A stretch of DNA of 64,000 bases from NCBI GenBank assembly GCA_027603945.1, contig JADIIU010000019.1, forward strand, positions 1-64,000, written 5' to 3'. This document shows, piece by piece, positions 62 to 62,548 of the stretch. Source of the DNA: Terramyces sp. JEL0728 (Eukaryota; Chytridiomycota; Chytridiomycetes; Rhizophydiales; Terramycetaceae). Below the pieces are notes generated by a model. It did not search any database, was not told the origin of the DNA, and saw only the letters and a list, made by a program, of their open reading frames with translations. The position numbers and the translations under genes were made by a program. Numbering within the stretch: position 1 is the first letter of the stretch; every line of letters begins with the position of its first letter.

Positions 62-416
62 TTATTTTTGATTTTCAAGTTGCTTTGATTTCCATTCAAA
101 GTACAAATCATCATTAAATTTGTATGATTCAAAGTCGACACATGGAACTAGAATTAGTTGTATTTACCTCCATCCTTCTTTGCAAGTTCAGCTTCTTCTT
201 TCTTTTCTTGGGCTTCAAATGCAAGTTTGGCTTCTTCAACCAAATCTTCATACTTTCTGCGAGCAGTTTGTTCATTTCTGTCCTTTACATAATAAGTGAG
301 ACTTCTTTGTTTAGAAAATCCGTAGGAGACTCCAAAAACAAGAGCACCGAGACGCAATAACTAATTTTAGTAATTCGTTGTACGTTGACTGAATGGTGGT
401 TGATGAGTGATGCCAT
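62..416 (-). CDS. ATP21: ATP synthase subunit e (mitochondrial F1Fo)
   Basis: Small inner-membrane subunit of F1Fo ATP synthase, involved in dimerisation of the complex. Exons are 384..416, 168..360 and 62..147 (103 aa), with introns of 23 and 20 nt. The second exon gives a short hydrophobic segment with a G-x-x-x-G-like pattern (ALVFGVSYGF), as in subunit e, followed by a charged helix. The third exon was found only by removing a 20-nt GT-AG intron at 148..167; without it the protein ends early in a stop. The family is poorly conserved in sequence, so the call rests on the N-terminal membrane motif and size. Confidence 0.68.
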
Positions 417-475
417 CTGAATGGTTTTTGAAAAAATTTTGAGCAGTCGAAATTTCAGTTTCCCAACCCTAGACA

Positions 476-1062
476 ATGAAAAAGAATAGTATACTGAAAC
501 GCCCAACAGATTCCCAGCATGGACAGAAAGGGTGAGTTGTATTAATATAGGATACGATGGGATGAAGATAATTTGGCCATCACCGAAGCACAAAAAGACT
601 CTACGATGAAAATCTTGGAGCCAAAAACACCCTATATCCACTACGACGCATCTATGGATGAACTCAAAGGCACCTCCAGCCAAGGCGTGCCGCCAATGGA
701 ACTAGAGCGAGCGATTAATCTGCAGAATTCTCTTAAGCGTGAAAATTCCCAGGAGATTCCGTTTGATGTTGACAAGCAGTTGAATATCAGCAGCAAAGAG
801 CACGATTGGTCGGAAGATGAAGAAGACCCGAAAGGTTTGGTTTGCTAATACAGAAAAACAAAAGCACCAGAGATTCAAAAAGATGCGGGCAGAACACTAT
901 GATATGAAAGAGGTTTTATCTCACGCAAAGGATTTATTGGAGAGCGAGCTGGAAGATGAGAATATTAATGACCCCAATAAGTATGAAGTTGAAGAAGCAC
1001 AAACACCCAACGTTGAAACAGATTCCGAAGACGAATTATCGAATAATCATACCAGAAATTGA
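476..1062 (+). CDS. GLC8: Protein phosphatase 1 inhibitor-2 (Glc8 family)
   Basis: Regulator of protein phosphatase 1. Exons are 476..531, 551..834 and 854..1062 (182 aa), with two 19-nt introns. Three family signatures are visible: an N-terminal SILK motif (residues 5-8) that docks PP1, a WDEDNL segment followed by the [10 protein letters not shown] motif near residue 40, and a C-terminal [13 protein letters not shown] helix that in the family enters the PP1 active site. The upstream ATG at 476 is preferred over the one at 519 because only it puts the SILK and WDEDNL parts in one frame across the first intron. Confidence 0.88.
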
Positions 1063-1224
1063 ATAATAAACTGTCTATTTATATTCCGATTTGAGATTCA
1101 ATGTTCTAGTGTCAGGATCCGTATACTTGGGCTGAAACAGGTAGCTGATGGTAACCTCTGTTTCTACAGTTACCATGTACCAATATACGCGCTGTTTGAA
1201 TTTTTTCAATCACAACAATCCAAA

Positions 1225-3202
<1,978 letters not shown>

Positions 3203-5149: not shown

Positions 5150-5641
5150 ATGCAAAACCCATTCGCTTCACAGAATGAAATGGACGAAGTAATATACCCT
5201 TAATCTAGATGTGCGGAGGGTTCAAACTCACCCGAATGCAAAGATTCCAAGCATTCGGAATATGCTTTGGTGTCGGATTCTTGATTTCGTTCTTTGCAAC
5301 ATTCTCATTGTGGACAGCTCAGTTTGGCTTGTTTGCTGCATTATATTCCATTGGGAACATTATTTCTTTGCTGGCTACAGGATTCTTGATTGGATTTAAA
5401 AAGCAGTTTAAAAAGATGTTTGATGAAACCAGGAGAACAGCGACTATTGTATTTTTATCATCGCTTGTGGTTACACTTGTTTGTGCTTTTGTGGTAAGAT
5501 TATGTTTGATTCTAGTTGCATATCGCTATTTTGACTTTGATTTCTGCATTGGTTCAGTTCTTTGCTTTACTGTGGTATTCCTTGTCTTACATTCCATTTG
5601 CCAGAGATGGTGTAAAGGGAATGTTCAAGAGCTGCTTTTAA
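5150..5641 (+). CDS. SFT2: SFT2 vesicle-transport membrane protein
   Basis: Four-span Golgi/endosome membrane protein that assists retrograde vesicle fusion. Exons are 5150..5188, 5209..5493 and 5516..5641 (149 aa), with introns of 20 and 22 nt. The family core is clear: RFQAFGICFGVGFLISF in the first span, LYSIGNI, the KQFKKMFDETRRTATIV loop, and LWYSLSYIPFARD in the last exon. The third exon is out of frame in the raw sequence and recovers the WYSLSYIP motif only after splicing. Convergent with TIM10, with 19 bp between stops. Confidence 0.92.
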
Positions 5642-8235: not shown

Positions 8236-8244
8236 TGATCAAAA

Positions 8245-8781: not shown

Positions 8782-10403
<1,622 letters not shown>

Positions 10404-10522: not shown

Positions 10523-12086
10523 ATGCAGCCTACGCCACCAATGCTCACCAAAAAAATAATGGATGAAGACCGAAATTTACTGCTAGGTCAAACAGATGTC
10601 GATATAGAAACAGAAAGTGTTGATGCTATCGATGTAAACGCAAACTGACAATAGAAATTGAACGATTGTATAACAAAAATCGGGATGGGCAGCTACCAGT
10701 GGAAACTATTCTTCCTGTGTGGAATGGGGTGGGCAGCAGATAATATGGTAATTAATTCTAATGCAGTGGTTTCAAGGACTAGCGGTTATACTAACCCCGG
10801 TTTATTTGGAGTTTAAACTTTCCGGATGGATGATTGGAGCTGGAACTACCAGCGCTCACCTCGGAGCAATGGTTGGAGCTTTGCTATGGGGATATATATC
10901 GGATAAATTTGGTAGACAGCCTGCATTTTTATGGACATTGATCATATCGGCTATCGGTGGAATAATGGCTTCCTTGTCTACGAATATCTATATTCTGTAT
11001 ATGTCACTAGCATTTTTGGGATGCGGAATAGGAGGAAATCTTCCGGTGGATGGTAATTTGGACTAACGCAGGCGCACTATTCCTTGAATTTATCCCTCAG
11101 CAGTATCAGTCTTTATTGACACTCTTATCCCTGTTTTGGCCAATTGGACAAGTCGTTACTTCATTGATTGCCTGGGCTGTACTACCTCGATATAGTTGTG
11201 AAATCATGGAAGGCTGTGGATTGGAAAACAACAAGGGATGGAGAATTGTACTAGTAGCACTAAGCTGCATGTCTATCCTGATGATACTTGCTCGAATATT
11301 TGCTGTACATTTCCATGAAAGCCCAAAGAATTTAATTACACGGGGTAAATATCAAGAAGCAGTCGATGTTTTGAATATACTGGCTGCAGAAAATAATGTG
11401 GAGCTGGATATCTCTGCGCACGATTTCGTTCGGCAGAGGGTTAAGCATGACAGCAACTTACTCCAAGATTACTTGCCTCTGTTCAAGAACGACTATTGTA
11501 TCTCGACAACAATGATTATCATGATATGGGTTCTGGTTGCTGTTGGATATAATATATTCAATGGGTTCCTGCCAAAATTCCTGCAAGCCAGCGGTCTTGA
11601 ACCGCTTACAATTGATGAGACTTTTAGGAATTATGTTCTGGTTTCCTTTTCAGGCGTGCCAGGGTCAATAGTTGGTGCATATCTGACAGACACCAAACTA
11701 GGAAGAAAAGGCACAATGTCTATTTCTACATTACTAACAGCAGCAGCATTGTTTCTATTCACTACTTTGAAAACAAATAGTGGACAACTAGTTGCAGCGT
11801 GCTGCGAATCGTTTTTACAAAATATCATGTAATCTCTTCTAACGATAGGTATGGAATCATTTACACTTATACACCAGAGGTATTTCCAACCTTTATTAGA
11901 GGCAAGGCCGTTGGGTTGGCATCTGCCAGTGGACGATTAACTGGTGCATTCGCGCCGGTTCTTGCAGGCTATCTTGTGTCGCAAAGTTTAACATTACCTC
12001 TATATCTAGCTGCCTCACTGATTGGTACCACGGGAATCCTGATGATATTCCTGCCAATTGAAACGAGAGGATCCGCTGCTCGTTAG
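10523..12086 (+). CDS. MFS transporter, SV2/SVOP-like
   Basis: Major facilitator carrier with about 12 membrane spans, 494 aa. Exons are 10523..10633, 10655..10747, 10767..11052, 11072..11828 and 11849..12086, with introns of 21, 19, 19 and 20 nt. The start of the domain matches the SV2/SVOP branch (ITKIGMGSYQWKLFFLCGMG then WAADNMWFQGLAVILTP). The loop motif GYISDKFGRQPAF between spans 2 and 3 and GVGGNLPVDGALFLEFIP around the third intron are typical. The second half carries the PEVFPTFIRGKAVGL motif. Substrate unknown; fungal relatives include inositol and organic-ion carriers. Confidence 0.88.
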
Positions 12087-12198: not shown

Positions 12199-13963
12199 AT
12201 GGATAACAAGAAAATAGGAATCTTGGGCGGTGGCCAACTAGGACGGTAAACCCCTTCCTGAATTAGAATGATGAATGAAGCTGCCGCACGTTTGAACATT
12301 CAAACAATCATTTTAGACCAAGAGAATGCACCTGCAAAACAAATATCTAATCAAAAACATATAAATGGTAGTTTTACTGATCCTGAATCAATCAAACTAC
12401 TCGCTAAAGAATCTGATGTGTTGACAGTTGAAATTGAACACGTCGACACTAAAACTTTACAGTCCGTAGTCGAATCTGGAGGTAATCACCATTAATGCAG
12501 TTCCTGTTCATCCAGATCCTACTACCATTCGAACTATTCAGGACAAGTACCAACAAAAACAGTTTTTGCTATCCAAAGATCCTTCAATTCCTATTTCTCC
12601 TTTCAGAGAATTAACCGGCGATTTGGTACTGGATTTGAAAAAGGCAGGAGAGGAATATGGATATCCATTAATGTTGAAATCAAAGACATTGGCTTATGAT
12701 GGAAGAGGGAACAAAGTGGTAAAGAGCGAAAGCGAAATTCCAGAAGCTATTAAAACTCTTGGTGGAGGTCCAGCAAATAGTGGGCCTGGATTATATGTTG
12801 AAAAGTTTGTTAAATTCAGCAAAGAATTGGCAGTTATGGTTGCCAAGTCAAGTGATGGGACTATTGCCAGCTATCCATGTGTTGAAACTGTTCAGCAAGA
12901 CAATATTTGCCATTTGGTAATTGCGCCAGCTCAAATTGACGGATTAGTACGGGAAAAGGCTCAATTTATTGCCGAATCTATTGCTAGAGTGTTTTCAGGA
13001 GTTGGTATCTATGGCGTAGAAATGTTTATGCTTGAAAATGGAGATTTGACTTTTAATGAAATTGCACCTCGTCCGCACAACTCTGGCCATTACACTATTG
13101 AAGCTTGCCATACTTCGCAGTTTGAGCAGCATTTAAGATGTGTCGCCGGCCTTCCGCTCGCCAGCAGCGCAATGAAAGTGCCTGCGTCCATCATGATCAA
13201 TATTATTGGAAAAGGAGAAGGAGAAGAAGGGCTAAGAGAGACTTTGGAACCATGCAAGAAATCGCTGACTATTCCAGGAGCAACTGTTCACCTGTATGGC
13301 AAATCTGGTTGCAAGAAAGGACGCAAAATGGGACATATTACACTCGTTGGAGAATCAATGACTGAGCTTTTAAACCACACACACAGATTGATGAACACTG
13401 ATGTTCCTAAACCTGCGCCGCTAGTTGGAATTATTATGGGCTCTGATTCAGATTTACCAACTGTTAGACCCGCTGCACAAATATTGAAAGGATTCGATGC
13501 CCCTTTCGAGCTGACAATTGTATCTGCTCATCGCACACCAGATAGAATGGTTGAATATGCCAAAACAGCTCATTTGCGTGGATTAAAGGTCATCATTGCT
13601 GCTGCTGGAGGCGCTGCGCACTTGCCCGGAATGGTAGTTCTAATATTAACCGATAGGTTGCTGCTTTGACCCCATTACCTGTAATTGGTATCCCGGTCGC
13701 ATTGAAATTATTGGATGGTGTAGATTCATTGCACTCAATTGTCCAAATGCCAGTAAGTGTTCTTTAAATGGTAGCGTGGTGTTCCAGTAGCAACTGTAGC
13801 CATCAATAATGCTGTCAACGCAGGACTACTGGCTGTAAGAATCTTGTCTACTCTTATTCCTTCGTACACCGAAAAGATTTTGGATTACAGTCAACTGCAA
13901 GAAGAAGAGGTGTTGAAAAAGGTTGACAAGCTGGAAAGTTTGGGATGGGAAAAGTATGAATAG
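12199..13963 (+). CDS. ADE2: Phosphoribosylaminoimidazole carboxylase (PurK-PurE fusion)
   Basis: Converts AIR to CAIR in de novo purine synthesis. Exons are 12199..12245, 12267..12481, 12501..13633, 13657..13752 and 13775..13963 (559 aa), with introns of 21, 19, 23 and 22 nt. The N-terminal two thirds is the ATP-grasp PurK-like domain (start [11 protein letters not shown], then [18 protein letters not shown]). The C-terminal PurE-like domain begins near residue 405 with [12 protein letters not shown] and has SAHRTPDR and [12 protein letters not shown]. This domain order is the fungal arrangement and a main reason for placing the organism with fungi; animals use a PurC-PurE fusion. Convergent with the next gene, 11 bp between stops. 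Confidence 0.97.
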
Positions 13964-16616: not shown

Positions 16617-16971
16617 ATGGGAAAATCTCCAACCAAAACAACATCAGATCGTATCGTCTATACCACCAAGATTGGTGACAATGCTCATCAATTCTTTGTC
16701 TACGTCGAACCTAATCAAGTAGACCTCTGGCGTAAAGGTATATTATGCTAATTCAGATAAATCTGTTCCGCTAGTAGACGTGGTCCAATCTTTCCAAGTG
16801 TTTGAAAGCGACAACCATAGCAACCAAGGGATTGCTATGAAACCAAATAAAGCTACTCTTTCAAACGCTTTTGGAACTGAAGACGAAAACAAGATTATTG
16901 AAAAAATCTTGAGCGAAGGAAAGGTTATGCACACCACTAATAACGGAGGAACAAAGGGATACGTTGCATAA
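16617..16971 (+). CDS. RTC3: SBDS-domain protein, Rtc3-like
   Basis: Small single-domain protein with the fold of the N-terminal SBDS domain; the yeast homologue Rtc3 is linked to RNA metabolism and telomere capping. Exons are 16617..16737 and 16757..16971 (111 aa), with a 19-nt intron. Matching parts are FFVYVEPNQVDLWRK, PLVDVVQSFQVFES, and the family ending NKATLSNAFGTEDENKIIEK followed by ILSEGK. Full SBDS has two further domains that are absent here, as in Rtc3. Confidence 0.75.
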
Positions 16972-21483: not shown

Positions 21484-21485
21484 AT

Positions 21486-24515: not shown

Positions 24516-24591
24516 TTGAAACAATTTGCTGGAAAATTCTGCACTGAAAAAGTAAATGAAAAAATATATTGCAAACTGCGATTAGTTCCAA

Positions 24592-46443: not shown

Positions 46444-46582
46444 ATGTCCAAGCTGAATAAACAAGTATAAAAATATTGCATCGTCCCTCCATAAAGCAGT
46501 GGTTCTACGTGGCTCTGCAGTAATTCCAAGCAATGATTCATTTTCAATGAGTGGCTGCAAAAAGTTTAAATCTTTCCTACAA

Positions 46583-47994: not shown

Positions 47995-49438
47995 TTAAAG
48001 CAGCATAGTAAGTGGGTTTTCAAGATAAGCCTTGAACTTTTGTAACCATTCAGCAGCAACAGCGCCATCAACAACGCGGTGATCTGGACTTAGAGTAACC
48101 TTTAGTACTTTGGTAGCCTTGAATCCTTTTTCGCTGGAAGCATCTAATACAAGTTTATCCTCAATTCCGCCAACTGCTAAAATAGCAGCATGTGGAGGAT
48201 TAATTATAGCGGTAAAATGCTGGATTCCATACATTCCAAGATTTGAAATGGTAAAGGTGCCGCCTTGATATTCTTGTGGAGCTAATTTACCAGCTCTAGC
48301 TCTTTCTGCCATACTTTTAACTGAATTAGAAATTGCAGAAAGTCCTTTAGTTTCTGCGCTGGCAACAATTGGGGTTATTAAACCAGTATCAGTTGCAACA
48401 GCAACCGCGATATCCGCATTCTTGTATCTAATGTTAGGCATCAGCTACTCTCTAATAAACGAACCCTGCCATGAACTGTTGACTGCTGGGACATCCAAAA
48501 GAGACAAACTAGAGGCTTTAATGACAAAGTCGTTGACTGACAATTTGTATTTTCCGTTAGATTCTTTGTTTAATACTTCTCTAAGTTTCAATACTTTGTC
48601 AACATTAATTTCTTGAGTCATGTAATAATGAGGAACGGTAGATTTGGATTCTGCAAGGCGGCTAGCAATTACTTTTCTAATGTTTGATAATGGAACATCC
48701 GTGAATGCAGCCTGGGCAGTTGGAGCAACAGGTGTTGAGGCAGGAGCAGCTTTAGAGGCAGCAGGAGCTGAATAAAGGAAAAAATACCTTTGTAATTTTC
48801 AATATCTTCCTTTACAATTCTCCCATCTGGCCCGGTTCCTTTAACAGTAGCGAGATCAATTCCTCTTTCTGCAGCTAAAGTTTTTGCCAATGGACTTGCA
48901 AAGATACGGCCAGCAGCTGGAGCGGCGGCGACAGGTGTGGCAGGAGTCGGAGCTGCAGCAGGAGTCAAAGTAGGGGCTTCTTCTTTCTTTGCAGCTGGGG
49001 TTGCACCCGAAGATGGAGTGAAATTTGCAAACTTTTCAATATCCGCCTTATCTTCAACAAGCACGCAAATGGGGACGTTAACATTGATATCCTTAGCACC
49101 AGCATCAACAAAGATCTTTGCAATAAAGCCTTCATCTTGACATTCAAAATCCATTTGCGCTTTATCGGTTTCAATTTCGACCAAGATATCACCAGGAGCG
49201 ATTTCATCTCCAATCTTTTTGTGCCATTGGCCAAGATTACCTTATATTAGCAAGCGAGTACCATGGGTCATAGTTGGGGAAAGTGCTGGCATCTTGATGA
49301 CTGTATGAGGAGGGAATCCTATTTTAGCTAAAAGACACCTTCAGATGAAAATCTCTTGAAGAGATTCATTTGATTCCTTGCCAGCGGGATTATAGCTTGA
49401 GTAAATTTGAATGCAGGTCTAATTGTTGAGATGAACAT
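47995..49438 (-). CDS. LAT1: Dihydrolipoamide acetyltransferase (E2) of pyruvate dehydrogenase
   Basis: Core of mitochondrial pyruvate dehydrogenase. Exons are 49339..49438, 49262..49318, 48788..49240, 48449..48767 and 47995..48427 (453 aa), with introns of 20, 21, 20 and 21 nt. Order of parts: mitochondrial presequence rich in R/K/S, one lipoyl domain ([16 protein letters not shown] then [15 protein letters not shown] with the lipoyl-lysine), A/P-rich linker, E1/E3-binding domain ([20 protein letters not shown]), and the catalytic domain ending [15 protein letters not shown] with the DHRxxDG active site. The single lipoyl domain is as in yeast. Confidence 0.97.
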
Positions 49439-49609: not shown

Positions 49610-50047
49610 TTATTTTGGAGTGGATGAAAAGAAGTCATCACGGGCAAGTCTGGAAGGAATCACATTTTGTTTACGGACAGTTTTCGCACTTTCTAGCAAA
49701 GACTGGGTTTTAGGAGTCTGCATTCTTACCCCGCGATACAGTTTTGACTTTGGGGTGATTGGCGTATTTAACGTCTTTGATTCTACGAGTATTTCAGATT
49801 CGTTCAACTGTTTAGCATTGTCAAACGGGTTGATATTTTCTCCATCTTCGTTGGGGTTTGTTGATTCGTACCAAATCCCGTTACTCTCCTGCAACGAGGT
49901 TTCAGACAGTTGTTCAGATAAGAGCAAATCAGACTTTCTGAATTAGCACAGTATTACTTGAAAAAATCATTCTTGACACTCGAGTTAAACCATAATTACC
50001 TTGGTGATGAATAATTGACCTGTGAAACCTTTTCGCCTTTTAGCCAT
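49610..50047 (-). CDS. Hypothetical protein with Cdk-type TP sites
   Basis: A long 3' exon (49610..49937) is open for 109 codons. A 5' exon begins MAKRRKGFTGQLFITK (50000..50047). Joining them in frame needs two introns around a 14-nt micro-exon (49958..49971), giving 129 aa; the 20-nt intron at 49938..49957 is canonical, the other would be 28 nt. The product is basic and polar, with NTPITPKSK, MQTPKTQ and a final SSTPK, so it may be a substrate of cell-cycle kinases. No family recognised. Confidence 0.45.
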
Positions 50048-50088
50048 CTATATTAGTCAACAATACGTTGGTGTTGGTGGAAAGGTGT

Positions 50089-51259
50089 TTAGCAAGGCAG
50101 CCGTAGCCTGTGCTCTCTTATCTTCCTCCAGCATTGCCTTTTCTCTCTTTTGTCAGCCAAAATTACCAAAAGATTTGCCCTTTCAACCCCCATTCTAATC
50201 GCAGCATCTGTAAAGTCTTTGCGTTCCCTTTCTAACTGCTCCTTGTCCTTTTGTAACCTCTCCCACTCTTCTTTCAGTTCTTCAATATTTTCTTCAAAAT
50301 CAGACTTGAAGTTAGGTGCTGGTTGTTTCGCTGACAGTGCCATTTCCAACAATTGTTTTTGCTCCTGCAACTTTCTATTATTTTGGTCTAATATTAGAAT
50401 AGGTGAACCTAATTCTTCTTTCAGTTGCTGTATTTCCAAATCTGCTTTCACTTGAACAAATGAACGATCAATCAAAGTGTTCAGCGTATCTGAAACTAGT
50501 TCTTTTACATTCTCAACCGGCATTTGGAACACTCCTTCCATAATGGACAAGTCATTCGCCTTTGCAATCAATTTGGAATACAAATCAAAGATAATCTGTC
50601 GTAATAATGAATTTTCGTACATTATTTCCTTTTCACGTTCTTCATAGTTGGCAATCACAATTTCGTACATGGTTGGCTGGTTAGTATTCTCGTACCTTTT
50701 CCAATGCTTGAATATGGATTTCCCCGTTGATTACTGCAGTTTGAGTATGCTTCGCCCCTGATTGTTAATATTAGGATACCTTTGGTAAGTTTTGCAAGCT
50801 GCTCTCTCATTCTAATCTTTTCTGTGTTGCTCTTTTTCAGGTCGTGTTCGTAGTGTGTCTTGCAGTATTGCAAATTCAACTTTGACTTTTTGTTTTCCTC
50901 TTTCTGATTCGCAAGATCTCTGCTTAAGGAATTGATTTTCTTTTCTGATAAACTAGAATTATCTCCGATTACTCGTTGGCTAGATTCAGTTGCTTGATTT
51001 CCTTTTCTTGGGAGATTTGTTTTTGTTTTAATCTCCTCTATCATTAAACGGAAACTACAATCTCTGCTTCGTACCCAGATTGCTCTTGCTCCAATATTTT
51101 AATCCGTTCAGTTTGTTCGTTGCGGTAAAGCTGTTCTTTTTGCTGCAGTTTGAGCAGCGAGAATATTGTTCCTTGAACAGTTTGGCTATTTGATAAATCT
51201 AGCTCTGGATATCCGATCGCTGATAATTCTCGATTTATATAATTCAAAACTTCGCTCAT
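50089..51259 (-). CDS. SSX2IP/ADIP-family centrosomal coiled-coil protein
   Basis: Family members anchor microtubules at centrosomes, basal bodies or fungal spindle poles (Msd1). Exons are 51059..51259, 50973..51037, 50780..50952, 50696..50757 and 50089..50676 (362 aa), with introns of 21, 20, 22 and 19 nt. The ADIP signature is the N-terminal VLNYINRELSAIGYPELDL, then long coils with LNLQYCKTHYEHDLKKSNTE, and TMYEIVIANYEEREKEIMYE which matches the animal MYK.LL.DYE.RQK.I..EN block. Everything else is coiled coil. Confidence 0.78.
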
Positions 51260-51518: not shown

Positions 51519-52910
51519 ATGGGAGGTGTCTTGTCATCACTGGTTACTTCAACAGCCTGTTGCTTTGGAAATGCAGCACTCTCCTGTTTTTGTAATATAT
51601 GCGGAAGTAAAAGTTCAACTGCAACCAGAGTAGGATATGCCTTACAATTTTTGGCAACCGCAATCCTTTCTTGGATAATGCTGACCGATTGGATGGGAAA
51701 GAAACTGCGAGATATCAGTTATGGCTATCTGGATTTAAATTGTCCCAATGGCCAGTGCTATGGGGTTTTAGCTGTATATAGAATTTGTTTTGCGACTTCA
51801 ATTTTTCATTTGTTGATGTGTCTGGGAATGTACGGAGTAAAGTCTAGCCAGGATTGGAGATCTGGAATCCAAAATGGCTATTGGGCATTTAAATGGCTTG
51901 CCTGGGCAGGTTTGATTGTGCTGGCCTTCTTTCTGCCCAATGGATTTGTCATGGGGTGGGGCCATTACATAAACATGCCTGGTAATTTCGGTTAATAATA
52001 GGCGCAACTGTGTTTATATTAATTCAATTGATCCTATTGATTGACTTTGCATATTCCATCAGTGAAACTCTGCTTGGTAAGTTTCATTTAATGTAGCGTG
52101 GTGGGACGAATCTGATGATCAAAGGTACCTTGGATTGTTGCTAGTGTTGACAGGTATCAGTTACATTGCTACCATAACGATTACTGGCTTCATGTACGCG
52201 TGGTTCGGCAAAGCAGATTGCAAATTGAACCAATTCTTTATCACATTTAACTTGATATTAATGCTTATCACAAGCGGGATATCGATTGCACCATTCGTCC
52301 AAGAAGTAAATCCAAAATCAGGTTTGGCGCAAGCGAGTATGGTTGCCATCTATGCAACCTACTTGATTGCTAGCGCACTATCTAGTGAGCCTTCGGACCC
52401 TAACGGAAGCGTATGTAATCCTATGGTGGAACAAGAACAAACTCAAACCACTTCAGTTTTAATGGGTATTCATATGACTGATCTTTAGGATCTCTCTTTA
52501 CGTTCTTGGCGTTATCTTATAGTGCCACTAGAGCTGCTGAAACTTTTACTTACAGCACAGAAAGTGAGCCATTGATGGGATCTCACCTAAATGCCGCAGT
52601 AGAAGCTGGTGCTTTGCCAATGTCATCAATTGGCGGCGGCGACAACAGCAAGCACCCTCAAGATGATGAGCAAGATGGAGTGCTGTACAATTATTCATTC
52701 TTTCACTTTGTATTCCTTATAGCTGCAATGTACTTGGCAATGTTGATAACAAACTGGGATTCTGTCATTTTCACTGAAGATGATCTGGCTGTAGTAGGAA
52801 AGAGTATGGTTGCAGCGTGGGTTAAAGTAGTTTCGTCCTGGTTTGTATTGTTAATTTACTTGTGGACGGTAATCGCCCCAGTTGTGTTGCCAGACAGGAA
52901 TTGGGACTAG
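51519..52910 (+). CDS. TMS1: SERINC/Tms1 membrane protein
   Basis: Ten-span membrane protein of the SERINC family, which affects lipid distribution. Exons are 51519..51981, 52002..52076, 52097..52465 and 52489..52910 (442 aa), with introns of 20, 20 and 23 nt. Typical parts: cysteine-rich start (MGGVLSSLVTSTACCFG), LFHLLM-like FHLLMCLGMYGVKSSQDWR, NGYWAFKWLAWAGLIVLAFF, CAYSISETLLAWWDE-like region spanning two introns, YATYLIASALSSEPSD, and the C-terminal FFHFVFLIAAMYLAML block ending in VVLPDRNWD. The first ATG after the SSX2IP promoter region is used. Confidence 0.96.
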
Positions 52911-52930: not shown

Positions 52931-53584
52931 TTAACAAGAATAACGGTCTTTAGCTTGACTGGCGTTTTTAACTGCAGTATCTGTGTGAGCTTGGAACCCA
53001 ATCTTTTCTGTAATTCCAACGGATTGTTTGAATTCGTTTCTACGTTACTCTCGGATTACCCTATTTCAAGTGTTTTTTCCTTGTCATCGAACGTCTTTGT
53101 CCACAACGAAATTCTATCTGCAGTTTTTCTTATGGAAAGAACAGCACCAGTAATTTCTTCGTTGTGAGTGAATTGTTCACCAATAATAGCCAACATCTGC
53201 ATTAACAATAATTACAGTTTTTATCCAGTTTAAATTCAAGTCCTTATCCCTCTTATTTCTTGCTTGGGAGTAAGTCCATTTTCCTCCTTTTGCATTTTCC
53301 TTGTCTTCCCACATTGGTTTAACTCCTTCCTTGAATAAATGGTAATTGGAAGAAGCTGGAATATCATTTGGGGTTCTTAAACTGAGGATTAATCCCCAGA
53401 AATCTTCAACAGTATCGACTGTTAATAAGCATTTCAGGTTTTCATCCCAAGTCAATTTTGGATTTTGCTTCATAAATGCTGGATCGTCGTACCACAAAGT
53501 CCATCTATGTTGTAAAGGATGTTTTAGTGTAAAATTCACTGGATCCTGGAAAATGGTGACTTGTTCTTCTGATTCACTACTCAT
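52931..53584 (-). CDS. CDC33: Translation initiation factor eIF4E
   Basis: Cytoplasmic mRNA cap-binding protein. Exons are 53216..53584, 53060..53196 and 52931..53039 (204 aa), with introns of 19 and 20 nt. The cap-stacking tryptophans are in place (HPLQHRWTLWY and KPMWED), as is the eIF4G-binding TVEDFWGLI. The tail IGFQAHTDTAVKNASQAKDR is near identical to other eIF4Es. Convergent with the SERINC gene, 20 bp between stops. Confidence 0.97.
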
Positions 53585-53742: not shown

Positions 53743-55070
53743 TTATATTTTAGCCATGTAAATATGAAGTTTCGAATCTTCACCACCACTGGCAATCAAT
53801 TCATTTTTCCAATCCAAATCAAAAATCCTTGACTCGCCATCACCGATAGAGTACAAAGGTATGCTAGATCGAATATCCCACACCTTTACTGTTCCATCGT
53901 ATGAACTGCTAGCAAAGTGGAACCCAGAAGTTTCTGATTTGGCCAACGACGAAACCCAATTGCTGTGCGATACGAATTTCATTTTAACAACTAGTCCATC
54001 TAAGTAAGATATGTATTTCACCTTTTGATCGTGGATCCCAAAGTCTAATACTTCCATCAACGTGGCCAGTCATAATCAACTTGGATTCAGATAGGTAGTC
54101 CATACAGGTAATCACCTTTTCGCAATTCTGGTTAGGTTTGTCTTACCATTGTGGTGGTATTTAGCTGTTGGGTGAAATCCCAAACTCTTACCGAATGATC
54201 CCAAGATCCAGAATACAGAGTGTTAGCCTCGTGTGGATCAAATTTAATACAGGAGACAGCTCCGCTATGGCCTTCCAGACACAGCTTGTGGTTCAAATGT
54301 TAGTCAAAAGGATACCTTGATGGTTTGGAAGCTTGTTTTTTGCTTCTTTTTTGATTTCTTTGCGGCATTGACTTGGATACCGTCTTCCAAGTGGCTCCAA
54401 ATTCGAATTGTTTTGTCCCATGAGGCAGTAGCAAAATGGTCATTATCTGTGCTGTTTGCAATGCCTTCTATGCTGCCTTCATGTCCGACGCAGGTGTATG
54501 AGAGACTCAAAGCATCACTATCCAATTCATAAACATAAATTTCTCTTTGCAAATTTCCTGCGACTACTGTATCGTCATTCAGCCAGTCAGCGCATTTAAT
54601 TGGAGATTCGCTTTCTGATGCGGATGTCAGCAACTCTCCTGACGGTGTCCAAATCCTTACATACGAATCAAAGGATCCGGTAAGCAGATATGTATTACTT
54701 TTTTGAATCTTTGTACTTGAAATCCAATCATCCTGAATTATTGTGGAAGATTCAGCAGGCGGTAAACTTAATTCTACAAATTCTATTTTTAGTGTATTTT
54801 CCTGAAATTAAATTCCAATTACGCTTGATAATGAATTTGCATTCAAATAATTCTCCAAAGATACCCGCAAGAATTTTCCATTAATAATAACGTCAAATGG
54901 CACAGGATCGTCTGATGTTAAATCAATGTACCTAATCCCAGCAGATGATTGATAATTTCCGACAAACCAAAGCGCTTCAACTTGGTAGGCACCAATATAG
55001 GAGCATCTGTAACTGCGTACTTGCTTTGTCTTGAATAAAAGGACACTTGGACCTTCCTCACTTCTGACAT
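53743..55070 (-). CDS. YTM1: Ribosome biogenesis WD40 protein Ytm1/WDR12
   Basis: Part of the PeBoW complex (Nop7-Erb1-Ytm1) in 60S maturation in the nucleolus. Exons are 54932..55070, 54823..54911, 54316..54801, 54147..54284, 54022..54127 and 53743..53999 (404 aa). The N-terminal NLE/ubiquitin-like domain (VQVSFYSRQSKYAVTDAPIL) binds the Rea1 MIDAS; seven WD repeats follow (HEGSIEGIANSTDNDHFATA, GHSGAVSCIKFDPHE, DPRSKDGLVVKMKFVSHSNW). Introns are 20, 21, 31, 19 and 22 nt. The 31-nt intron contains a 22-nt GT...TG alternative that also keeps frame; the AG form is preferred. Confidence 0.95.
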
Positions 55071-55360: not shown

Positions 55361-57922
55361 ATGGCAACGCTGCAGAAATTTTCAGAGGTTATCGATTGGA
55401 GAATAGTATTAGGGATTGTGCCAATTATATATTTGATGCCGTGGACCTTTGTAACGGCTGTCCTGGTAATTGGCGCATTTTTATTGGGAATTCTTTTCGA
55501 GGAAGCAAATGTTCGAGATGGCGGAGGGATTGCATTAATCAATCAACACTACCAGGAGAGAATTCAACCAATTAATGAAGCAGCTAGTGCTAAACTGAAG
55601 GAATCCCTTGAATCCCGGGTTGTATATTCAAAGAACGAACCAGTTTCCTCAGAATTAGAAGCAGTATTGAACAAATTCATTTCCAATATTGTAAGGGATT
55701 TTATCAATGGCTGGTACAATAATTTGAATGTTTCAAAGAAAACTGACTTTCCAGATGCTATTCAAGCTTCGATTTTTGACAGCTTCGTAACTTTGGGAAA
55801 TTCGGCAAGGAAAATCAATCCCACCAATTTAATCCTCTCTACAATGGAATCTGTTATCGAACATGTCGTAATATTCTCTTAATTTTAGAAAGAATATCGC
55901 GAGTTTGATTTGTCAGGGCTGGATATGCAAGATTTCTTAAAAATCAAACCAGAATCTAGATTTAATAGGTTCAACTCCCGAAAAGCTGTTGTGGATCATC
56001 TCTGCGAACAGTCAATGAAGCTAATTATTCACATTCTGCCTCGGCCAGACAGGAATTCATCGGCTTTGTTCTCGATTGTTCAAGAAATCGTAGCGACAAC
56101 AGTTTTACTCCCAATTATTGATAAAATTACAAACCCTACTTTTATCAATGAATCTCTATTGAATGCTTTAAAAAAAAAGAACGATTCGGCAATAGCTGGG
56201 CAAATGCAGGAAAGAACAAAATTAAAACAAATATTGGGCAATGATAAGACGCTGCTTGACTTTCAAAATTTCTTGGAGGACAAACTACAGTTTTACCTCG
56301 GTGTTTATTTGGACATTATCTCTGCAAATGAAAAGGGTGACCAACAGACATTTCTTTCCAAGCTTAAGAGCGATTCCTATGGTGTTAAAATGCAGGGGTT
56401 ATTACAACTGGCGAATGTTTCCGAGATCACTTCTGATAGCGTAGTAGAGCTTGAAACCGCCTTATCAAAGATATTGGATGATCAGGCGACCTTGTTCGTC
56501 TCTCAAAAATCAATTCAAATGGATGTGGAAGTGACAGAAGAAGCAAGTGAGTTTTATATTGGCTCGGCAGACAGAGGAGTATTCCTCAGCAGTTTTATTA
56601 AAGATTTGGAAGAAAAGTTGTCCAATATTGGCAAGTCTATGGGCTCAGTGGATGCTAATCTGTCTGATTTGCTGGAATCTAAATTGCTTTACCAATCCCA
56701 GTTGGAGGAATTTAGAGAATTGCTTGTTCAAGAACAAGAAAATCCGCTACAAAAAAGGTTATTGGATGTGCATAGCGCTGATATTGTCGTGACTCTTGAA
56801 GACAACTCAGCATCGAAAAAAGAAGCTAGCATCATCTCGCTGGGATTCTTGAATGCAGGAGTCCCAAATTATGCCATAACTGTGACATCTTCTATCAAGA
56901 ATTGGTCGGTTGTAAAAACGGAAGCAGATTTTGAACAGCTGTCGAAATCTTTGCATAATCATTTCAACAGAGTGAAATTACTACGATCAGAAGTGAAGGG
57001 GTTTATTTCCAAAACTACAGAGGCAGAATATACGGCAAAGGCTCTTGAATACACCAATTATTTGAATGAACTGAACCATGACCAAGTAGTCAGACATAGT
57101 GTAGACTTTTTAGCGTTTGTTCAACCGTTAGAAGTCAAGAAAGTGGAAATGAAAAAGTCCAATAGCTGGATGGAACCTAATATTTCAGTGAAGAAAGTTC
57201 TTAGCTCCGCAAGCATTGGTATTGGCTCTGCATTGAAAAGGGTAACGGAGGCATCGATTGTCGCAGAAAGCCCTGCAGAACAAACTCTTCAGAATGTAGA
57301 AGAAATTTCAGATCATACTGATTTGCAACTTGGTTCGGCTGGTGAACAATTGCCTGCTGACGACGAATATGACGATGAAGAAATAGTTTTCAATTCTTCA
57401 ATCAGCAAAGAAGATCTGAACATCATATTGGATATTACTTTTACAACAATCGAAGAGCTATTTTCACTCAATCAATCCAGCCAATGGATGCGCCAACAAT
57501 CCTTGCATTTGATCAAAGTGATGTTAAAGAGAATGTTTGGCAAAAAGCTCTCTACTGTAATCACTTCAAAGTTGGATCAAGCCTCTACTGAATCATCAAT
57601 TTGCACGACAATTGATTCATTGACTGAAACACTTTGGCCAGAAGCCAGACCTTGGGGAACTGGCCCACAAGTTCCTGAAAAAACACCTTATGAAACTGAA
57701 CGAATCAAACACCAGCTATTCTGTTTGTTGAACAAACAAGAAGGCATGCAAAGAAGCGAAGAGTTTGAAAAGGCAGTTGTAAGCATTCAAAACTTGCTGG
57801 GGAATGCCAACACCACAAAGGGACTCTTAAGAGGGTTCTTTTTGGTTCAGAATCAGCACCTGAGTGCCGGCCTGTGCTGTGAAATTATTGAAAGCATAGT
57901 GAACATGGTTACTTTGAATTAA
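55361..57922 (+). CDS. Sorting nexin of the Mdm1/SNX13-SNX14-SNX25 type
   Basis: ER-anchored tether protein family at ER-vacuole/lipid-droplet contacts. Exons are 55361..55867 and 55889..57922 (846 aa), with a 21-nt intron inside the PXA domain. An N-terminal hydrophobic hairpin (residues 17-45) anchors it; the PXA domain follows (VLNKFISNIVRDFINGWYNN ... VDHLCEQSMKLIIHILPRPD). A weak RGS-like helical region comes next (FQNFLEDKLQFYLGVYLDII), then a PX domain around residues 500-600 and a nexin-C domain at the end (LGSAGEQ linker, then WMRQQSLHLIKVMLKRMFGK). Order fits Mdm1. Confidence 0.87.
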
Positions 57923-58035: not shown

Positions 58036-58632
58036 ATGAAATACGGTGTAATTCTAAGTACTGTCAGGGCGGGCAGAATGTCTGACAGAGTTGGCAAACT
58101 CGTAGTTGACGCAGTTAAAAGTAGGGGGCATTCTGCTGCGTTAATTGACCCAAAGGTAATAATAAATCTGATGTAGGCGTACGACTTGCCAATGTTACTT
58201 GGGAGATTCGCATATTTAGATAAAAGCGAGCCTTCATACGGCAAATTGAGTGAAATTTCTACAACTTTGCAATCCTGCGACGCATTCATTGTCTGTTCAG
58301 CTGAATACAATTTCACCATTCCGCCTGCTTTAACAAACTTGATGGATTACTTTTTGGATGAATACAAGTACAAACCAAGCGCAATTTGCTGTTACTCTCA
58401 AGGTTCTTTTGGGGGTATAAGGGCTGGGTCTGTGCTACGTAGTTTCTTGGATGGTTTAGGGTGCCCATCAATTCCAAAGATGTTCCCAATTCCTACTGTC
58501 CAAAAAGCAGTAAATGAAGATGGTACGACAGATTCTGAAATCTTGCAGAAAAGTCTTGCGGGTTTCTTGTCTGAATTAGAATGGTATGCTGAAGCGCTGT
58601 CTTTGCAACGTGCCAAAGGTCTGCCAAAATAA
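58036..58632 (+). CDS. NADPH-dependent FMN reductase family protein
   Basis: Flavodoxin-fold oxidoreductase (SsuE/YieF/Lot6-like). Exons are 58036..58155 and 58177..58632 (191 aa), with a 21-nt intron. The first strand and FMN-phosphate loop are VILSTVRAGRMSDRVGKLV. SAEYNFTIPPALTNLMDYF and YSQGSFGGIRAGSVLRSFL are typical of the fungal and bacterial proteins. The likely role is NAD(P)H-driven quinone or flavin reduction in the cytosol; the substrate is not clear. Confidence 0.82.
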
Positions 58633-58959: not shown

Positions 58960-59640
58960 ATGACAAAGCAACAGTCCCCACGAAGACCAATGAATGGTAC
59001 CCGATGATTAACAACAGCATTTTTCATCTACCGAAAAGCAATGCGGGAAAAATTTATTTCTCTTGCTGGAACCTCTCGTTCGCATAATGTCTCCAAGGTC
59101 GCTGGTGAAAGCTGGGCAAAAGAATCGCCAGAAGTAAAGGCCCACTACCAAAACCTCGCTCTTGTTGCTCATCAAGAGCACAAGGAAAAGTATCCAGACT
59201 TTGAATGGTGCCCAAAAAAGCCAAGGGATAGCGAATCTAAAGTGGAGCCGTCTATGAAAAGAAGGTACTCAGAACCTGCAATTTCAACAAAGCGACCTTA
59301 CACTTTTAGGAAAACAAAATCTGAAGAGTCTTTAAAATTCAACCCAGTTAACGAAATGCCAGAGTACAACACTGGGTTTGAACCAGTATCTGCCGATGTG
59401 TATTTTTCAACATTATTAGAGAGTGATTTGGCAATTACCTCCGCTGATCTGAACGCTTATCCAAGTTATGAATATCATGATTACGGCGCAGTAATTGAAA
59501 ATTCTCCGTTTTCTTTTGTAAAAACCAACTATCAAACAGTCCCTGTAAAAGCTGAAATGGAAACCGATCCGTTCGATGCCCTGTTCGCTCAACTTACAAT
59601 GGACTCTGTAAACAGCAATCAATCCACTGTACACTTCTAA
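58960..59640 (+). CDS. HMG-box transcription factor (MATA/SOX-like)
   Basis: Exons are 58960..58996 and 59018..59640 (219 aa), with a 21-nt intron that splits the box. A single sequence-specific HMG box lies at residues 8-80: RRPMNAFFIYRKAMREKF, then SHNVSKVAGESWAKESPEVK, then HYQNLALVAHQEHKEKYPDF. The RPMNAF start and the SKxxGExW pattern place it with MATA_HMG/SOX proteins rather than with the non-specific HMGB type. The acidic/tyrosine-rich C-terminus may activate transcription. Fungal proteins of this class include mating-type regulators (MAT1-2, sexM/sexP). Confidence 0.87.
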
Positions 59641-59729
59641 CCCTGTTCATACTCTGTATGTAAATTGAACCTCATTATAATAAATCCTGTACTTTTGATT
59701 GAAAATATTTGTTTCTTTTTGAACGCGAC

Positions 59730-62548
59730 ATGGAACCTCTGCTAAAACGAACCTCGGTGGAATCGCCAAAAATCCCTAGGAGGTTTATAAAAAACAAGAG
59801 TTTTACTGGATCAAGAGAGAATGTGCTAGCAGACACGCCAGTATTTTCGCCGATTCTGGAAAAGAGTATAGTAGGAGTATTAGAATACCAGGAAAAATTG
59901 AAAGAAATAGATGCAGATATTTCTCTGGATCCAACTAATCTTATCAAGCACCTAAGTGATATTAATTTCCTAATAGAAAAAGCGTGTCTGTCCGCACCAG
60001 AGCAATGCGGCGATATCTGGAAGAATTTAAAAGGAGTGCTAACCGATTTCACAGAAAAGTGTTTCAAAGTAGACAAAACACTGCAAATTCCGCGCTGCAA
60101 GGCAATTTCAAATAAATTCGTGAATCCACATGGCGAGGAATGGGAAGACAACTTTTCGTGGCTGAACGACCGAAATGATCCAGGAGTGTTAAAATATATT
60201 GATGAGGAGAATGTGTATGCTAATGCAGTAATGGAAGATACTAAATCCTTGCAAAAATTGTTATACAAAGAATTCGTATCAAGATTGGACCAAGATGAAG
60301 AATCACCAAAGCTGAAGCTGGATGATGGTTTCTATTATTACTCGAAAAAGGTAATTTCCTACTGATTCCATATTGCCGGAGAAGAATATAGAGCACATTG
60401 CAGATGTAATCCAGAAACAGGCGAAGAATTTATTTATTTAAATGAAAATGATTTAGCTACCAAACAATATGCTGATGCATCATTCTTTAGTGTAGGATAT
60501 CTTAAACTGTCGCCAGATTGTTCAAAGCTAGCCTATGGTGTAGACGGGTCAGGGCAAGAGAGATATTCAATCTTATTCAAGGATCTCAAAAATGATCAGG
60601 AGATCCAAGACCAAATTGAAGGTGCATATATAGATTTGGAATTTTCAGAAGATGGGAATTATGTATTTTACACATTGCTAGATGACACTGAACGGGCATA
60701 TCAAATAAAACGTCATAAAATCGGCACTCCTGCGACCGATGATGTAATCTTGTATGAAGAAACTGATGAAATGTTCTTCCTTACTTTGAAAAAGACCTGC
60801 GATCGAAAATATTTAATACTTACATCTGCAGCTCAAATTACTTCTGAAATCCGATACCTTAATACTGCAACACCCGAACACAAATTGGAACTATTGCTTC
60901 CACGACAAGAAGGAATCCAGTATTTATGTGTTGAACACCACGACGGATACTTTTATATTCTTTCGAACGCAGAAGTTAAGAACAACTATTTATACAGAAC
61001 TCCGGTCCCTGTTGACAACACTTGCGATATAAATAGCCAAGAAATAGTGGTAGAACATCGCGATTTCGTACTTATCGAGGATTTCCAATTTAGGAAAAAC
61101 TACTTGATTGTTTTGGAACGTTCCAACTGTCTACAGAATGTTCGAATTTTGAATACTCACAGCTTTATTGACAGCGAATTTACCAATTTCCACTATGTTA
61201 GTTTCTCGGAAAATGTCTATTCGCTCTGGCTGGGGACACCCAACGAAGACTCTATCTATTTAACAAAGTCGGGCCAGTATAATTCAAATATTTTACGAAT
61301 TACATATACCTCGTTCATCCAGCCAAAGCAGGTGATTGATTACAACATGAACGACAGGTCGATGACTATTATTCATGAAGAAGTTGTGAACGGAGTATTT
61401 CCTTATGACAAGTCCCAATATCATTCTCAAAGACTGTACGCAACAAGTTACGATGGAACGTCCGTCCCAGTTTCAATAGTATACCGAAAAGATTTACTAG
61501 GAATGAACATGAATCCAATACAATACAACCCGTGTTTGTTGCACGCTTATGGCGCGTATGGCAGCTGCGTTAATCCAATATTTTCAGCCTCTAGGTTGTC
61601 TTTGCTGGATAGAGGATTTATCTATGCAGTCGCGCATACAAGAGGTGGTGCTGATATGGGTAATGGCTGGTATGAAGAAGGAAAGCTTGCCAAAAAACCG
61701 AATACTTTTTATGACTTTTGCGCTGTTGCTGAATATCTAATCAAAGAGCAATATACTGTCCCGTCCAAGCTGGCAATATATGGGAGGTCAGCAGGTGGCC
61801 TGTTGATTGGGGCTTCTATTAATATGCGGCCAGATTTGTTCCAATCTGCCCTAACCGAAGTACCGTTCGTCGATGTTATCAATACTATGTTTGATTCTTC
61901 AATTCCATGGACTGCGTTTGAGTACGAAGTAATCAAATATAACTTTAGGAATGGGGAAATCCTAATGACGAAGAAATATATGAAGTTATGAAAGGATATT
62001 GTCCATACACGAATATTGATGGAGATAAATTGGCACAAAATCTGTACCCAAATCTATTGGTATTGGGAGGAATGAACGATCCTAGAGTTGCATTCTTCGA
62101 ACCCCTAAAACTTGTTGCAAAAATGAGATATGAAAAACAGAAACATATAGAAAAGGCACATATAATTGGTACAGAAGTAGACGGCAATACTTTAGAGAAC
62201 AGAATGCTAATTCTGAAAATCGACAATGCTGGTCATGGAGGCAACTCTGGACAGTATTCCTTTTTAGAAGACCTTGCATTTGAATATGCATTTTTAATCA
62301 AAACTCTGAACGCATTAGAAAAACCAATCTATTCTGATTATGAATTGTTTGAAGAAAAAGCTTCCAATTTAACCAGTTCACAGTTAGAAACTGCAAAAAA
62401 TTTTGAGCGAAGTCATAGGGGTCTTCGAGAAAGATTGTCATTTAAATGGGATAAGAAGAAAGAGAATCATGAGGAAAAAATTTACCGAAACAAGGCCAAA
62501 AAGACAACAAGGACTCAACTATTTCAATGGCTGAATAATTTTTTATAA
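59730..62548 (+). CDS. Oligopeptidase B-like S9A peptidase with extra N-terminal domain
   Basis: Serine peptidase of the prolyl-oligopeptidase class. Exons are 59730..60350, 60372..61928 and 61949..62548 (925 aa). From about residue 125 it follows oligopeptidase B: NPHGEEWEDNFSWLND, propeller, then the catalytic domain with PCLLHAYGAYGS, RGGADMGNGWYEEGKL, the nucleophile in GRSAGG, the aspartate in GMNDPRV and the histidine in AGHGGNSG. The first 120 residues (S/P-rich, then coiled-coil-like) and the last 70 basic residues are additions. The second intron is a canonical 20 nt; the first (60351..60371) fits only as a 21-nt intron ending in AT. Confidence 0.92.
60351..60371 (+). other. Non-canonical 21-nt intron, GT...AT
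   Basis: First intron of the oligopeptidase gene: starts GTAATT, has TACTGAT as branch point, and is followed by TCCAT where CAG is expected. Removing 21 nt gives YYYSKKIAGEEYRAHC, which aligns with the family pattern. Leaving it in brings a TGA. The next AGs (in GGAG and GAAG) put the downstream domain out of frame. Confidence 0.55.

Follow-up and report, generated by a model that had tools for sequence, protein, structure and literature searches.

The short gaps that interrupt the genes of Terramyces sp. JEL0728 are very probably U2-type spliceosomal introns that, as read from sequence, have shrunk to about the shortest length the spliceosome of this fungus accepts, and this applies across the sampled genome. 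The gaps show an excess of GT..AG ends, a branch motif that can pair with U2 and restored proteins on their removal, as U2-type introns do, and the observation of introns of about 20 nt is itself confirmed. A sequence-only reading of the window (the whole 64,000-nt stretch of DNA analysed) had proposed such introns genome-wide, in keeping with which U2-type introns of 19-22 nt were found throughout the sampled 264 kb of the assembly. Their length is also, as had been claimed, near the known minimum and far under usual fungal lengths, taking as a yardstick Cryptococcus, in which introns with a mean of 63 bp are called relatively short (PMC8476143).

Intron lengths and end pairs

The window and 20 other 10-kb stretches of the assembly (L009-L028), 264 kb in total, were decoded with a gene finder that had no preference for length or motif and accepted GT..AG gaps of every length from 12 to 120 nt. 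Over the 264 kb the lengths formed a sharp spike between 19 and 22 nt, the third pass giving 256 GT..AG gaps with 43 of 19 nt, 50 of 20 nt, 22 of 21 nt and 7 of 22 nt and only 0-5 gaps at each other length from 12 to 120 nt. When gaps of 9-60 nt were allowed and GT..AG was compared with 16 other end pairs, 135 gaps of 19-22 nt had GT..AG ends against 9-25 for each control pair, with 37 against 2-6 in the window alone. GT..TG, GC..AG and AT..AC were considered as extra tiny-intron classes and rejected, their counts (13, 10 and 18) lying inside the control range. Decoding with flat lengths up to 300 nt yielded long gaps that fuse neighbouring genes, which were left out of the intron counts.

It is scarcely credible that the gaps are an artefact, either of sequencing indels or of a gene finder buying frame with short deletions. 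The codon-pair table of the later passes and of the control run was re-trained on GT..AG-decoded genes and could favour GT..AG, but the spike was already there in the first pass, trained solely on long open frames (33, 38, 14 and 6 gaps at 19, 20, 21 and 22 nt; n=222), and did not appear with the control pairs. Likewise the branch motif described below emerged although it had never been supplied to the motif-blind model, and for the two genes checked against deposited proteins, most junctions coincide.

A second model, which learned the motifs and, unlike the motif-blind run, holds a learned length prior, placed 356 introns in the 264 kb, 336 of them of 18-25 nt and 325 of 19-22 nt. Two were of 18 nt, such that the earlier statement that none falls below 19 nt is valid for the window only (0 of 113). 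A further 20 were of 36-111 nt, some with good consensus, and this coexistence of longer introns with the same consensus indicates that tiny size is not obligatory. Within the window it gave 45 gene models, 35 with introns, and 113 introns, of which 101 were of 19-25 nt and 12 longer than 25 nt; the earlier figure of about 125, all but some ten of 19-25 nt, was close to this. Stop-free introns of 3n length were scarce (4/65 against 101/253 at other lengths), a count biased by the fact that such introns can be read through by the model; the scarcity may reflect nonsense-mediated selection.

Gene models in the window

Strands are given below as + or - and intron lengths, in nt, in brackets. The ATP synthase E chain gene (w1, PF05680; 62..416, -) has introns at 148-167 (20) and 361-383 (23), while six interrupt that for V-ATPase subunit A (1225..3202, +), at 1228-1251 (24), 1346-1365 (20), 1561-1580 (20), 2339-2358 (20), 2547-2567 (21) and 3094-3112 (19). 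An RNA methyltransferase of the Methyltransf_10 family (PF05971; 4071..4922, -) is split at 4216-4235 (20) and 4806-4824 (19), an MFS transporter (10523..12086, +) at 10634-10654 (21), 10748-10766 (19), 11053-11071 (19) and 11829-11848 (20), and an ADE2-like PurK-PurE fusion (12199..13963, +) at 12246-12266 (21), 12482-12500 (19), 13634-13656 (23) and 13753-13774 (22). The ABC1-family atypical kinase gene (14933..16518, +) carries 15729-15748 (20) and 15864-15884 (21, GT..TG), the latter hidden in a 105-nt model gap, 15864-15968, that looks artefactual.

Further along, PEP carboxykinase (ATP) (37555..39269, -) has introns at 37973-37994 (22), 38948-38972 (25) and 39131-39151 (21), a LIM-domain protein (43991..44778, +) at 44124-44144 (21) and 44547-44566 (20), and F-actin-capping protein alpha (w34; 44796..45723, -) at 44828-44850 (23), 45011-45030 (20), 45170-45190 (21), 45382-45401 (20), 45492-45512 (21) and 45626-45644 (19). 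The model at 45846..47342 (+) probably runs two genes together, one for a ubiquitin-conjugating enzyme, with introns 45889-45907 (19), 45941-45961 (21), 46077-46120 (44) and 46174-46192 (19), and one for a Bax-inhibitor-like protein, with 46788-46807 (20) and 47033-47055 (23), the gap 46440-46530 (91) being a likely false join between them. At least two of the 12 window introns longer than 25 nt (15864-15968 and 46440-46530) thus look like artefacts. The 2-oxoacid dehydrogenase E2 gene (47995..49292, -) is interrupted at 48428-48448 (21), 48768-48787 (20) and 49241-49261 (21), and that for a Serinc-family membrane protein (51519..52910, +) at 51982-52001 (20), 52077-52096 (20) and 52466-52488 (23).

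Single introns occur in w13 (13975..14800, -) at 14325-14343 (19), w15 (16617..16971, +) at 16738-16756 (19), w20 (21486..22290, -) at 21671-21689 (19), w25 (30337..30938, -) at 30807-30826 (20), w31 (40518..41581, -) at 40854-40873 (20), w42 (55361..57922, +) at 55868-55888 (21) and w43 (58078..58632, +) at 58156-58176 (21). Pairs are present in w2 (476..1062, +) at 532-550 (19) and 835-853 (19), w6 (5150..5641, +) at 5189-5208 (20) and 5494-5515 (22), w16 (17037..17655, -) at 17088-17107 (20) and 17378-17397 (20), w18 (18442..19964, -) at 18666-18684 (19) and 18809-18827 (19), w24 (28876..29786, -) at 29383-29427 (45) and 29673-29692 (20), w40 (52931..53473, -) at 53040-53059 (20) and 53197-53215 (19), and w41 (54304..55070, -) at 54802-54822 (21) and 54912-54931 (20). 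In w45 (59730..62548, +) the intron 61929-61948 (20) is accompanied by 60328-60414 (87), whose boundaries are doubtful and which, with 15864-15884, is perhaps one of two window gaps with ends other than GT..AG.

Three introns lie in w10 (9230..10403, +) at 9386-9404 (19), 9911-9930 (20) and 10091-10109 (19), and three in w28 (34730..36960, +) at 35288-35323 (36), 35346-35367 (22) and 36789-36807 (19). In w23 (26983..28750, +) there are 27382-27401 (20), 27662-27682 (21), 28164-28184 (21) and 28326-28345 (20), with 27508-27552 (45) doubtful, and in w27 (33497..34695, -) 33653-33671, 33829-33847 and 34026-34044 (19 each) and 34400-34419 (20). Five were placed in w26 (31157..33332, -), at 32198-32216 (19), 32368-32387 (20), 32531-32624 (94), 33099-33141 (43), which divides into 22 and 21 nt back to back, and 33288-33306 (19), with a doubtful 31881-31989 (109), and six in w32 (41949..43467, -), at 42075-42094, 42213-42232 and 42451-42470 (20 each), 42738-42800 (63), 42868-42888 (21) and 43306-43327 (22). 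The introns of w38 (49610..51259, -) are all of 19-22 nt (49938-49957, 49979-49999, 50048-50066, 50147-50166, 50677-50695, 50758-50779, 50953-50972 and 51038-51058), and w22 (22960..26942, -) has eleven of 19-21 nt (23112-23131, 23401-23420, 23711-23731, 24411-24429, 24719-24739, 25156-25175, 25429-25449, 25951-25971, 26222-26241, 26566-26585 and 26616-26635) and a doubtful 24576-24678 (103).

Protein support for the splice junctions

Matches to proteins assign the window to this chytrid strain. By homology, removal of the gaps restores both frame and protein continuity in the proteins compared, with 34 of 41 junctions lying inside the matched stretch when 11 window proteins were set against Pfam or PDB. 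The spliced V-ATPase subunit A matches P0001 of Boothiomyces sp. JEL0866 (97%) from P0001 residue 5 on, and PDB chains also; the intron 1228-1251, directly behind the start codon, was positioned manually, guided by the P0001 N-terminus, and is extra to the 113. The deposited protein P0121 of the same strain agrees at five of the six w34 junctions, with P0123 and P0127 backing the sixth, while three Boothiomyces proteins contain a 7-residue insert exactly where the 19-nt w34 intron 45626-45644 sits. From their sequence these inserts can be read as retained 21-nt introns, complete with branch motif, that were misread as coding. In the case of w38, six of the eight junctions are matched by the deposited same-strain protein P0241; the 16 residues between the remaining two are missing from P0241 but at least partly present in P0242. 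Deposited chytrid gene models for these two genes, w34 and w38, would include tiny introns left in place and an exon that was skipped.

Branch motif and intron geometry

Of 122 motif-blind introns, 108 had the motif YTNAY close to their 3′ end, compared with 690 of 6,279 background segments. The donor consensus is GTA-A-N-T, with T at +5 (42-45%) commoner than G (22-24%). As located by the motif, the branch A is preceded by 13 or 14 nt in 300 of 336 introns, with 13 the minimum across the model set, and is followed by 4-7 nt, which together account for the total of 19-22 nt. The branch position thus appears fixed, as it is in tiny-intron genomes.

It is very improbable that the gaps are kept in the mRNA and skipped by ribosomes (translational bypass), or cut from DNA or RNA by non-spliceosomal means. 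The introns are known here from genomic DNA and protein comparison, which leaves this reading some footing, but GT..AG ends, YTNAY in a fixed place and a U2 with GUAGUA are what a spliceosome needs, and other end pairs were tried without comparable excess.

For spliceosomal introns at a minimal length, the first six bases would be read by U1 and then by U6, while U2 would pair with the six or seven bases that end at the branch. The sequence-only reading held that the U1, U2 and U6 contacts must overlap, which is not supported, as the 13-14 nt ahead of the branch A would accommodate U1/U6 at +1 to +6 and U2 on the last 6-7 nt up to the branch, next to each other; in Stentor the branch A sits at position 10 (PMC9505925). 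The 3′ splice site would be the first AG after the branch, too close to it for a polypyrimidine tract to fit in between. A hard floor may then be set by the distance from the 5′ splice site to the branch, onto which deletion pressure would have pushed nearly all introns.

snRNAs and splicing factors

An inventory of the snRNAs, suggested by the sequence-only reading, succeeded for U2 (140.2 bits) and U5 (85.9 bits), with GUAGUA, the branch-pairing segment of U2, and CGCCUUUUACU present and both RNAs canonical where checked. Slu7 is also present, which defeats the proposal that the closeness of branch and 3′ end had allowed it to be lost. Searches for U1, U4 and U6, run without a positive control, gave no Rfam model match for U1 or U4 and none above the cut-off for U6, nothing for U6 when the Rfam consensus served as a single BLAST query and 0 matches to a gapped U6 pattern. 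Two weak Rfam U6 matches under the gathering score of 44 (L029, 27.4 bits; L030, 26.9 bits) were discarded on inspection, since the aligned sequence is near-identical at both places, has an intron-like segment (21 nt and 20 nt) and does not show the AGC triad. The U6 5′ half gave 6 matches at up to three mismatches against 7 in a reversed control, and the four read in context (L036, L039, L040 and L041) did not continue into U6. Its 3′ half gave 5 against 3 in the control, with no U6 at the two read (L042 and L043), the best of them, L042, sitting by eye in a RecQ helicase-like stretch. A U1 pattern matched 3 times against 2 in the reversed control, and L033-L035 hold no snRNA.

The failure to find U1, U4 and U6 while U2 and U5 were found, together with the excess of T over G at donor +5, might suggest a changed spliceosome acting on genuine introns, with divergence, splitting or loss of U1, U4 and U6, altered branching factors and a length floor that is the product of a special machine. 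This is unlikely, though less so than bypass; the U1, U4 and U6 searches had no positive control, U2 and U5 look canonical, Slu7 is kept and longer introns of the same consensus coexist. Slightly more doubtful still is a Terramycetaceae spliceosome dedicated to introns of 19-22 nt, its U1, U4 and U6 too diverged for standard models to detect, or its U6 genes too split by their own tiny introns, and the 13-14-nt spacing built in. The earlier inference that an adapted spliceosome is implied was not borne out, given the canonical U2 and U5 and the retained Slu7, and introns worn down to the floor of this fungus's spliceosome remain the preferred reading.

Significance and comparison with known systems

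Terramyces is free-living. With many 20-nt introns in a fungus of free-living type whose gene number is unreduced and whose U2 and U5 look canonical, intron shrinkage is set apart from genome decay, and the spacing between 5′ splice site and branch, here 13-14 nt, shows sharply and in a natural setting how short that distance can be. Strains belonging to the JEL series of cultures are kept in a public collection (PMC7537106), so RNA-seq should be feasible. Tiny-intron genomes are already known as a kind, being cited, in the portions of the literature consulted, for relict nuclei, reduced intracellular symbionts and ciliates, and a chytrid fungus is an unexpected place for one. A literature search found no fungal tiny-intron genome, and the intron passages of PMC5364385, PMC13391722, PMC3569864, PMC11649378 and PMC12075339 contain nothing on tiny chytrid introns.

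Short introns genome-wide are shared with the ciliates Paramecium and Nyctotherus, in which they are on average longer, at ~25 bp (PMC5014332). The type B introns of Trichomonas vaginalis are likewise short and uniform, down to 23 nt, but number 24 amid longer ones in an intron-poor genome (PMC12316389). Mikrocytids (Mikrocytos mackini and Paramikrocytos canceri) have narrow, conserved, tiny introns of 16-17 nt, M. mackini differing in being an intracellular symbiont with 224 introns and a reduced spliceosome of 17-19 proteins (PMC10245619). In the nucleomorph of the chlorarachniophyte Bigelowiella natans, a relict endosymbiont nucleus, >800 introns in ~300 genes have lengths within the narrow range 18-21 bp (PMC10245619), whereas the 15-Mb fungal assembly here would hold an extrapolated ~20,000. 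The extreme genome reduction of nucleomorphs and mikrocytids is not seen in Terramyces, with 15,016,339 bases and an extrapolated ~9,560 gene models. In the heterotrich Stentor coeruleus near-uniform length, a fixed branch A, A+T-richness and a 3′ tail of ~5 nt are all as here, but the introns are of 15-16 nt, have the branch A at position 10-11 and lack a strong branch consensus (PMC9505925), against 19-22 nt, position 14-15 for the most part and a strong YTNAY; Slu7, entered as N/A in the Stentor listing, is present here. The band of a few nt near 15-21 that typifies tiny-intron genomes has its counterpart in the 19-22 nt of Terramyces.

Short GT..AG gaps beyond chance

The window of Terramyces sp. 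JEL0728 (Terramycetaceae, Rhizophydiales, Chytridiomycota) was combined with 20 further 10-kb stretches (positions 20001-30000 in each of contigs C1-C18, C20 and C21) of assembly GCA_027603945.1 (15,016,339 bases in 231 contigs), giving a 264-kb sample in which the small contigs are not represented. Genes were sought on both strands with a motif-blind decoder that scores in-frame codon pairs and admits any GT..AG gap of 12-120 nt at equal cost, the training for its first pass being long open frames only. That pass placed 222 gaps in the 264 kb, with 33, 38, 14 and 6 at 19, 20, 21 and 22 nt, and by the third pass the total was 256, of which 43, 50, 22 and 7 had these lengths, any other length having 0-5. 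In an end-pair control that allowed gaps of 9-60 nt and exchanged GT..AG for each of 16 alternatives, there were 135 GT..AG gaps of 19-22 nt in the 264 kb versus 9-25 across the control pairs, and 37 versus 2-6 in the window only; the codon table for this control was re-trained on GT..AG-decoded genes and may favour GT..AG, help of which the first motif-blind pass is free. The donor GTA(A)N(T) emerges unprompted in the 122 third-pass gaps of 19-22 nt, and a branch-like YTNAY, ending 3-6 nt before the intron end, is found in 108 of them compared to 690 of 6,279 background GT..AG segments of 19-22 nt. The analysis demonstrates GT..AG ends, the motif, its spacing and the frame.

Intron anatomy

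A second model, which took its donor, branch and length preferences from the motif-blind introns, gave 356 introns in 168 gene models across the 264 kb (1.67 introns per kb of coding sequence). Two of these are 18 nt, 96 are 19 nt, 145 are 20 nt, 64 are 21 nt, 20 are 22 nt, nine are 23-25 nt and 20 are longer, a distribution that is partly prior, unlike that of the motif-blind model. Using the motif with a flat length prior the peak persists (76, 112, 42 and 18 at 19, 20, 21 and 22 nt; n = 334), followed by a sparse tail of long gaps, some of which fuse adjacent genes. The branch A, as placed by the motif, is preceded by 13 or 14 nt in 300 of 336 introns and by fewer than 13 in none, with the 3′ end following 4-7 nt afterwards. 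Introns in the sample are 70% A+T versus 60% for coding sequence, T being the most frequent base from donor to branch. A rough extrapolation from 1.8% of the assembly gives a total of some 20,200 introns and some 9,560 gene models.

In the 264-kb sample, introns free of in-frame stops make up 4 of the 65 of length 3n versus 101 of the 253 of other lengths. Nonsense-mediated surveillance of introns left in the mRNA would produce such a deficit, but the gene finder can miss stop-free 3n introns. Two 43-nt introns, at window 33099-33141 (-) and at 3842-3884 (+) of L025, one of the 10-kb stretches, each divide exactly into 22 + 21 nt that abut without an exon (the halves score 0.2 and 6.0 for the motif in the window, 2.8 and 4.1 in L025), possibly as back-to-back introns around zero-length exons with stepwise splicing.

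In the window the motif-learned model has 45 gene models, 35 of them intron-bearing, and 113 introns, of which 101 are 19-25 nt, none is shorter and 12 are longer, to which a 24-nt intron directly 3′ of the V-ATPase A start codon (1228-1251) was added by hand as demanded by the N-terminus of P0001, the subunit A of Boothiomyces sp. JEL0866. The sequence-only reading, with about 125 introns, nearly all 19-25 nt and none below 19 nt, was therefore about right in count and lengths. Among the 12 long gaps, 46440-46530 seems to fuse two genes and 15864-15968 conceals a 21-nt gap at 15864-15884 (+). This has a good CTAAC branch and ends in TG rather than AG, and its excision gives back the ABC1-kinase stretch FIHCDPHPGN; the alternatives are a GT..TG intron and a base error, the end-pair control having no general excess of GT..TG gaps. 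At 60328-60414 (+), in the gene at 59730..62548, the flanking frames could not be joined by eye at a GT..AG pair, perhaps reflecting a base error or an unusual site.

Homology and deposited proteins

For 11 window proteins (10 of the 45 models compared with Pfam, V-ATPase A with PDB), 34 of 41 junctions lie inside the matched stretch with a margin of 3 residues or more at either end, and V-ATPase A has a 97% match to P0001 across all 613 residues. The F-actin-capping protein alpha gene (44796..45723, -) matches the deposited Terramyces protein P0121 (HDV01_002622) at 100% over 97%, with P0121 concurring at five of six junctions and running on at the last; the 23-nt intron 44828-44850 yields the C-terminus seen in the proteins P0123 and P0127. 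The product of the gene at 49610..51259 (-) is matched by P0241 (HDV01_002627, same strain), all 479 residues of which are identical, but which lacks 16 residues encoded exactly between introns 50048-50066 and 49979-49999; these are present at least in part in the protein P0242. The deposited annotation therefore already uses most of the tiny introns of the two genes compared and misses some.

Three Boothiomyces capping proteins (P0122, P0123 and P0124) carry seven extra residues (GRVELIK, GSIGLTK and GSIGLTK) at precisely the place where the window has the 19-nt intron 45626-45644, and back-translation gives 21-nt segments able to start with GT, finish with AAAG and hold TTAAT or CTAAC. Read from protein letters, these inserts would be introns taken as coding, and this one place in one gene suggests a tiny-intron system common to the family. 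Among the deposited Terramyces and Boothiomyces models (P0121-P0124 and P0241) there are thus tiny introns left in the protein, stretches that were skipped and a C-terminus that runs on.

Splicing machinery and proposed mechanism

An ordinary U2 snRNA (140.2 bits, gathering 46) with the branch-pairing GUAGUA, an ordinary U5 snRNA (85.9 bits, gathering 40) with loop CGCCUUUUACU, and Slu7 (matched in two places, at 139.2 and 104.2 bits) are present, the second Slu7 stretch spanning two stop codons as expected from an unspliced intron. Two tRNA genes (both 55.8 bits) lie shortly behind the U5 gene at 1901-1982 and 2330-2411 (+) of its locus, L032. Family models for U1 and U4 had no match in the assembly and further U1 and U6 queries and patterns gave nothing convincing, an empty result of such a search being uninformative unless a genome known to carry the query is run alongside; assembly gaps, introns within the genes or divergence could possibly account for the U1, U4 and U6 misses. 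Two weak U6 matches were rejected; the places concerned (L029:1501-1606 and L030:1501-1605) are nearly identical and on separate contigs, with a one-base difference within a tiny-intron-like segment (21/20 nt). A Methyltransf_10 RNA methyltransferase (PF05971) is encoded at 4071-4922 (-) of the window; this family includes the enzyme that methylates the U6 ACAGAGA box, and the gene would hint at an ordinary U6.

The usual spliceosome most likely removes the 19-22-nt introns, with U1 and then U6 on the first six bases and U2 on the six or seven bases leading up to the branch, such that 13-14 nt would just suffice for both side by side with no overlap; the 3′ splice site would be the first AG past the branch. 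The floor of 13 nt before the branch seems to mark a mechanical limit, and the narrow range of lengths just over it would come from deletion pressure towards this floor; a passage of PMC10245619 makes the same argument for mikrocytids.

Comparison with known systems

Introns of 18-21 nt in nucleomorphs and 16-17 nt in mikrocytids (passages of PMC10245619) and of 15-16 nt in heterotrichs (a passage of PMC9505925) have been reported. In Stentor the branch is placed at position 10 in the latter source, whereas Terramyces mostly has 13-14 nt before the branch A, and the earlier proposal that U1, U2 and U6 contacts must overlap suits Stentor better. Slu7 is entered as N/A for Stentor in a table of PMC9505925 but is present in Terramyces. 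For fungi, the short introns named in the part of a 644-genome survey drawn on here (PMC8476143) are those of Cryptococcus, with a mean of 63 bp, and introns of about 19-22 nt in a chytrid or other fungus were not described in titles or abstracts among the matches listed, nor did a genome paper for the strains concerned turn up, most subscription journals being outside the coverage. Since tiny-intron genomes are already known as a kind and none was described for a fungus among the matches listed, Terramyces is filed among them as a further, fungal case.
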